A stretch of 11,778 nt of DNA, taken from contig CAMYJP010000046.1 of NCBI GenBank assembly GCA_947258675.1, positions 1 through 11,778 on the forward strand, in the 5' to 3' direction. Position numbers and translations under genes: made by a program. Below the pieces are notes generated by a model. It was not told the origin of the DNA and ran no database searches. It worked only from the letters and a program-made list of their open reading frames with translations. Source of the stretch: an uncultured Desulfobulbaceae bacterium (GTDB taxonomy: Bacteria > Desulfobacterota > Desulfobulbia > Desulfobulbales > BM004). Positions 408 to 1,569 of this stretch are shown here, in pieces. The stretch's first letter is position 1, and each line of letters opens with the position of its first letter.

Positions 408-1569
408 TCACTCTCTTTCCTTTCTTATACGTGCTCCAAGATTTGACAACTTGTCTACCAACCCTTCATATCCCCTTTCCAGGTGATAAATTCGAGAAAT
501 CTCGGTAATTCCTTTGGCGGCAAGACCGGCGACGAATCTTTGCTCCAGTCCGTATCAATTCGGCTACATGCATAAACCTGTTTTCAAAAATTGTTTCCGT
601 TATAACACTTAAACCATTGGCCATAGTCATGAGAGCCATCATCTGGGCTTGCAAATCAGTAGGAAAACCTGGGTAAGGCTGGGTTTTTATATCAACGCTG
701 TTCAATACGCCTTTCCTTGATACCCTTATAGAATTGCTAGATTCGTTTATAAAAAGACCAGCGGTTTTCAGCTTTTCCAAAAGTGACGGCAGGTGTGCAG
801 GATTGCAGTTGGTCAATGTTGCTTCTCCTCCAGTCGCACCAATCGCGATCAAATATGTGCCTGTCTCAATTCTGTCCGGGATGGTTGTAATTTCTGCTGG
901 CATTAAATCACTGACTCCCTGAATTACCAATCTATCTGTTCCACGCCCTTCTATTTTGGCTCCCATACCGTTTAGCATATCAACAAGATTGGAAACTTCC
1001 GGCTCTCGGGCAGCATTTTTAATAACGGTAATACCATCTGCCATCACCGCGGCCATGATAATATTTTCCGTGCCGGTAACGGTAGGAATATCAAAATAGA
1101 CCGTGTTTCCTCTGATTTTGTCTCTGACCCGTGCTTCTACATATCCTTCGGTCAGATCCAGATCAATACCCATCTTTTTGAGACCCTGCAGATGAAAATC
1201 AATAGGTCGAGCCCCTATAGCGCAGCCCCCGGGAAGGGATACCCGGGCAGTTCCCATGCGCGCCAGCAGGGGACCAAGAACCAGAATAGATGCACGCATG
1301 GTTTTAACTAAATCGTACGAAGCTTCAATATGCAGCAAATCTGCAGTGTTGATCTTAAGCGTTTTTCCCTTTCTTTCCCACACAACTCCCATTGACTCAA
1401 GCAAGATCAACATTGTACGTGTATCACGCAGGTCCGGCACATTATGTATGGTATGCCAACCAGGGACAAGAAGAGTGGCGGCGATAAGCGGAAGAGCGGC
1501 GTTTTTTGCACCGCTTATGCTTATTTCACCATGTAATGGGTAACCACCCTCAATTATTATTTTATCCAT
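408..1569 (-). pseudogene. murA: UDP-N-acetylglucosamine 1-carboxyvinyltransferase, internally deleted and frameshifted
   Basis: MurA transfers enolpyruvate from PEP to UDP-GlcNAc, the first committed cytoplasmic step of peptidoglycan synthesis. The frame from ATG at 1567-1569 looks normal at first: Lys22 in GAKNAAL, Cys116 in PGGCAIGARP (the PEP-reactive, fosfomycin-target Cys, E. coli Cys115) and Asp305 in GFPTDLQAQ. After about residue 345 (AELIRTGAKI) it becomes unrelated sequence and stops at 466. The genuine C-terminus (AGLAAKG, then RIYHLERGYE, LGARIRKERE) is readable in another frame from 530 to a TGA at 408-410. Compared with E. coli, residues about 346-377 are missing, near 95 nt, so the frame shifts. 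The lost piece contains the equivalent of Asp369-Arg371, and the Arg397 region is out of frame. An aaggaa ribosome site lies inside the end of prmC, 2 bases upstream. Decay, or an assembly error, are the two explanations. Confidence 0.85.

Follow-up and report, generated by a model that had tools for sequence, protein, structure and literature searches.

Does the bacterium behind this sequence live with a broken murA, or does the break exist only in the sequence? MurA carries out the first committed step of peptidoglycan synthesis and is the target of fosfomycin. A true loss would suggest that an uncultured lineage has replaced MurA; on the side of caution, an essential gene can look convincingly lost on a seamless contig. 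The window (the whole stretch of DNA analysed, 11,778 nt) carries an interrupted murA near one of its ends, and this break is most likely not a real biological feature.

The murA frame and its junction

The following features of the minus strand describe the interrupted gene:
466..1569, minus strand: murA (UDP-N-acetylglucosamine 1-carboxyvinyltransferase), open from its ATG; residues 1-345 authentic, followed out of frame by 22 more before the TGA stop at 468-466
531..537, minus strand: junction in murA, with the Ile345 codon at 537-535, a single extra base at 534 and the GTC codon at 533-531 that opens the tail
408..533, minus strand: out-of-frame murA tail, intact, consisting of the last 41 codons and the stop at 410-408, and carrying the Arg397 equivalent

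The open reading frame (1569..466) encodes 367 aa, most of which are those of an ordinary MurA. Its match to the NCBIfam family TIGR01072 covers profile positions 1-347 of 416 and scores 449.4 bits, above the curated cut-off of 392.7, and all NCBIfam matches of this frame stop at residue 346-348. Likewise, residues 1-345 of MurA chains of 419 residues in the PDB (e.g., 1ejc and 1uae) pair with residues 1-345 of the query, the matches to full-length PDB MurA stopping at residue 343-348 of the frame. Over residues 1-345 the alignment with a 418-aa relative (P0002) is ungapped, and identity to the eight relatives of alignment A1 is 73-76%. The window protein has K22 and C116, both in invariant columns of A1; in PMC4790336, for E. 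coli MurA, Lys22 is the N-terminal lysine and Cys115 the catalytic-loop cysteine. The 22 residues that follow residue 345 are unrelated to MurA. On the coding strand, base 534 is left over after Ile345 and is followed, in a different frame, by VAGLAAKGITEISRIYHLERGYEGLVDKLSNLGARIRKERE and the stop at 410-408. This tail of 41 residues matches relatives over its entire span, so its presence in the shifted frame is not due to chance. The sequence-only reading, which had proposed a murA normal through residue 345 followed by an internal deletion with a frame shift, was therefore right on both points.

Size and content of the lost block

The missing interval was compared with that of 33 relatives (25 genome loci and eight proteins; the record titles of MurA relatives name Desulfobulbaceae, Desulfobacterales, or Deltaproteobacteria). 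Between Ile345 and the Val-Ala-Gly that opens the tail, 24 of the 33 have 32 codons, eight have 34, and one has 31, where the window has one base. The loss thus amounts to 95 nt if the gene itself had 32 codons, in line with the approximately 32 codons and 95 nt estimated from the sequence alone; otherwise it would be 101 nt (34 codons) or 92 nt (31 codons), with an identical change of frame. In P0002, the block corresponds to residues 346-377 and includes Asp369, Leu370, and Arg371, as had been anticipated, whereas Arg397 lies in the tail; the numbering of Asp369, Leu370, and Arg397 was carried over from matched PDB end coordinates and the residue names in part of PMC4790336, rather than from a residue-by-residue alignment with E. 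coli. The same part of that source describes Arg397, together with Lys22 and Arg120, as contacting the phosphonate of fosfomycin. In contrast with MurA of the type found in P0002 and at the genome locus of a close relative (L001), which belong to TIGR01072 and PF00275, the window protein has no counterpart of residues 346-377 and leaves the frame afterwards. Since the equivalent of Asp369-Leu370-Arg371 is lost and that of Arg397 is encoded only in the tail (533-408), outside the murA reading frame, a functional MurA would not be expected from this frame.

No compared sequence shares the loss

A search of 5.8 billion proteins, from which the best 120 of 8000 scored candidates were listed, returned the window's own protein (P0001) as an entry with a single member, on a single contig of 11,778 nt. 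The remaining 119 on the list measure 416-426 aa and all keep the DLRA motif; the nearest of them is 79% identical, and neither an intact nor a broken near-identical sister is present in these best 120 of 8000. At the genome level, a tblastn comparison of 80 loci (the best 80 of 246 found) gave 77 with an unbroken frame across the region and no more than four residues absent; in the other three, the contig ends at residues 372-380 and the sequence up to that point is complete. A count by regular expression over the same loci (41/80) was too stringent for the more distant ones, and the tblastn count was used instead. The same loss therefore occurs in 0 of the 119 other proteins among the best 120 and in 0 of the best 80 of 246 loci. 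The alignment to murA of relatives that the sequence-only reading had called for thus places the deletion in the window copy alone, with the interval filled in the 33 relatives, and a deletion common to relatives is rejected, being absent from A1, from those 33, from the listed proteins, and from the 80 loci.

These comparisons also bear on the idea that a short MurA could be functional through decoding by frameshift. Such decoding would need a conserved tail in the alternative frame, and this is present; however, a change of frame would not bring back the 32 residues that include Asp369-Arg371, and DLRA is kept in every one of the 119 proteins just mentioned, which makes this explanation exceedingly improbable.

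Absence of decay around the break

Outside the break, murA shows no decay or relaxed constraint by a test over the 133 columns of residues 1-345 that do not vary among the other 33 sequences: the window protein changes two of them (one Ser to Thr, one Leu to Ile), the other rows changing 0-4, and neither the 345 codons nor the tail of 41 codons has a further frame break. An old pseudogene is rejected on these grounds. The neighbourhood likewise shows no decay. All ten other complete protein genes of the window match families over nearly the full profile, namely prmC, prfA, rpmE, rho, coaE, an RluA-family gene (rluD-like), pth, rplY, and prs by NCBIfam, and carD, which has no NCBIfam match, by Pfam. 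The gene order prs-rplY-pth-carD-rluD-coaE-rho-rpmE-prfA-prmC-murA is identical in L001. Compared with that locus, MurA (74.7% identity) does not stand out, since its value is close to that of PrfA (73.5%); Rho reaches 87.6%. Beyond murA lies one further coding fragment:
2-130, plus strand: C-terminal piece of a putative histidine-kinase-like protein with a GTGLGLAIV motif, convergent with murA
Of the first 25 loci, 13, L001 included, have an opposite-strand match to this fragment beyond murA.

A second murA

MurA is described as essential in part of PMC4790336, and the sequence-only reading had left two ways out, a second murA or an artefact. Copy number was counted in the genomes of relatives (15 close ones and 257 of the order of genome G001), as distinct from the window's own genome. 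Each of the 15 close genomes, searched to an E value of 1e-3, has exactly one MurA above the cut-off, and 13 have one further hit, of at most 86 bits against the cut-off of 392.7; judging from their scores, these weak extra hits look like AroA. The order survey counted matches at E 1e-60 or better only and, for some genomes, scored six of seven to nine candidates. Of its 257 genomes, 237 have a match at this level, 229 have one above the cut-off, and 20 have none, a figure given irrespective of genome completeness. Two matches occur in three genomes only (G062, G144, and G231), all of them scoring under the cut-off, with the gene divided between contig ends. The search for a second murA in both sets of genomes thus yielded none with two MurA above the family cut-off (0/257 in the order), and a backup copy in this organism is unlikely for that reason.

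The same survey weighs on the possibility of a pseudogene fixed in the lineage, where murA would be dispensable thanks to another MurA, perhaps an acquired one, or to a life without a wall. No order genome has two MurA above the cut-off among matches at E 1e-60 or better, anything beyond the single MurA in the 15 close genomes is weak, and the gene itself has no extra frame breaks and few changed conserved residues, so that we regard this scenario as very improbable. More improbable still is that a bacterium of this order has just lost its sole canonical MurA and uses another enolpyruvyl transferase or makes no normal peptidoglycan.

Breaks of murA in other genomes of the order

To place the window among comparable cases, we considered the 16 genomes of the order whose best MurA match scored lowest (E worse than about 1e-155). 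A contig end truncates murA in 13 of them, and in the other three (G217, G175, and G132) the gene is interrupted within a contig, which amounts to at least 3 of the 237 order genomes with a MurA match, breaks of low cost being able to escape the score filter. In G217 (L092), pieces 1-91 and 115-418 flank an NN. In G175 (L087, at about 1503), an NN follows about residue 358 and the sequence resumes at GLAAKG; residues of about 359-379 are missing, again including Asp369-Arg371, which is nearly the same block as in the window and represents either a coincidence or a spot that is hard to assemble. In G132 (L089), a frame change adjoins a run of ten G. None of these three genomes has another MurA above the cut-off. 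The NN and the homopolymer suggest that the three breaks are assembly or sequencing flaws. All three resemble the window in having their sole MurA over the cut-off broken inside a contig, with residues missing and/or the frame changed; in contrast with the NN of G217 and G175 and the ten G of G132, the window's join is seamless and has no N.

The bases at the junction

The sequence-only reading had also suggested a 5-base micro-homology (tcgtc) at the junction. This suggestion does not hold, as it requires codon 347 to begin with C, yet all 33 relatives have Val or Ile there, the codons of which start with G or A. Possible values for the shared bases, as read from the sequences of relatives, would be 0 to 4. 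Four would be shared only with CGT as the lost codon 346 and a codon ending in TC before the tail; among the 25 relatives with DNA, three (L005, L007, and L015) have CGT at codon 346.

A real and very recent deletion could have formed at such an overlap (0-4 bases) by slippage or end joining and be present in the sampled cells or in relic DNA as a lethal or near-lethal allele of a minor, dying, or mixed population. Up to four shared bases are compatible with the junction, its flanks are clean and free of N, and the absence of decay fits a recent event. However, relatives have murA as a single-copy essential gene, so that such an allele should be too rare to enter a consensus, and the best 120 of 8000 scored proteins contain no near-identical sister (the next being at 79%). 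We consider a recent deletion unlikely, even if it is the most credible of the biological explanations.

The break as a probable artefact

The reading that we favour, with a probability of about 0.77, is that the murA break arose as an artefact during library making or assembly, close to the end of what is probably a metagenomic contig. It is supported by the proximity of the break to the contig end (about 531 nt), the single contig, the single-copy essentiality of murA, and the lack of decay. Of the two ways out mentioned above, the artefact is thus the one favoured, given that no searched genome of the order has two MurA above the cut-off, that decay is absent, and that joins with NN offer precedents. 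About 95 nt of a healthy single-copy murA would have been dropped where two stretches were joined, a join probably made in vitro or in silico, and the organism's real murA would most likely be intact, its product a normal MurA of about 418 residues. The join could stem from a chimeric read, from gap filling, or from the removal of gap letters. Against an artefact, the window has no N anywhere, unlike G217 and G175, and the remainder of the contig is clean, not error-ridden in general.

Also against it, joining on 0-4 shared bases is not a usual error of de Bruijn assemblers; a read or a gap-filling step (or a real deleted molecule) would therefore have carried the join. The idea that sequence words common to several species caused an assembly break was not supported, the lost block being average in DNA conservation among 25 relatives (rank 180 of 387 stretches of 32 codons); a 12-codon core of the lost block (MATDLRASASLV) ranks 31 of 407 in the same relatives. 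If this sample was amplified, a chimera formed during MDA is a possible route. The portion of PMC1855051 that treats such chimeras has joins in direct orientation at short complementarity as one class, a rare one (69/475, with 11 of the 69 less than 10 kb apart), and reports that short complementarity is common where the joined segments lie close. The window case would resemble these chimeras in its two segments, direct orientation, and short complementarity.

An intergenic repeat and the opposite contig end

Between murA and the convergent kinase-like gene, positions 195-392 form a 198-nt element with imperfect inverted ends of 32 nt (84% complementary). Similar DNA occurs in at least 13 of 249 order genomes (three candidates scored per genome) at 70-89% identity and from partial to near full length, and at least eight of these 13 have two or more matches. 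The element has no Rfam family at the gathering score and resembles a dispersed repeat of the MITE-like or palindromic kind. It was rejected as a cause of the break, the junction lying outside it, about 140 nt off, and no link being found. By eye, L001 has a different palindromic intergenic element (11290-11460) at apparently the same place, directly after murA. At the opposite end of the contig, a complete tRNA-Gln (ttg) occupies positions 11701-11775, 3 nt from the end.
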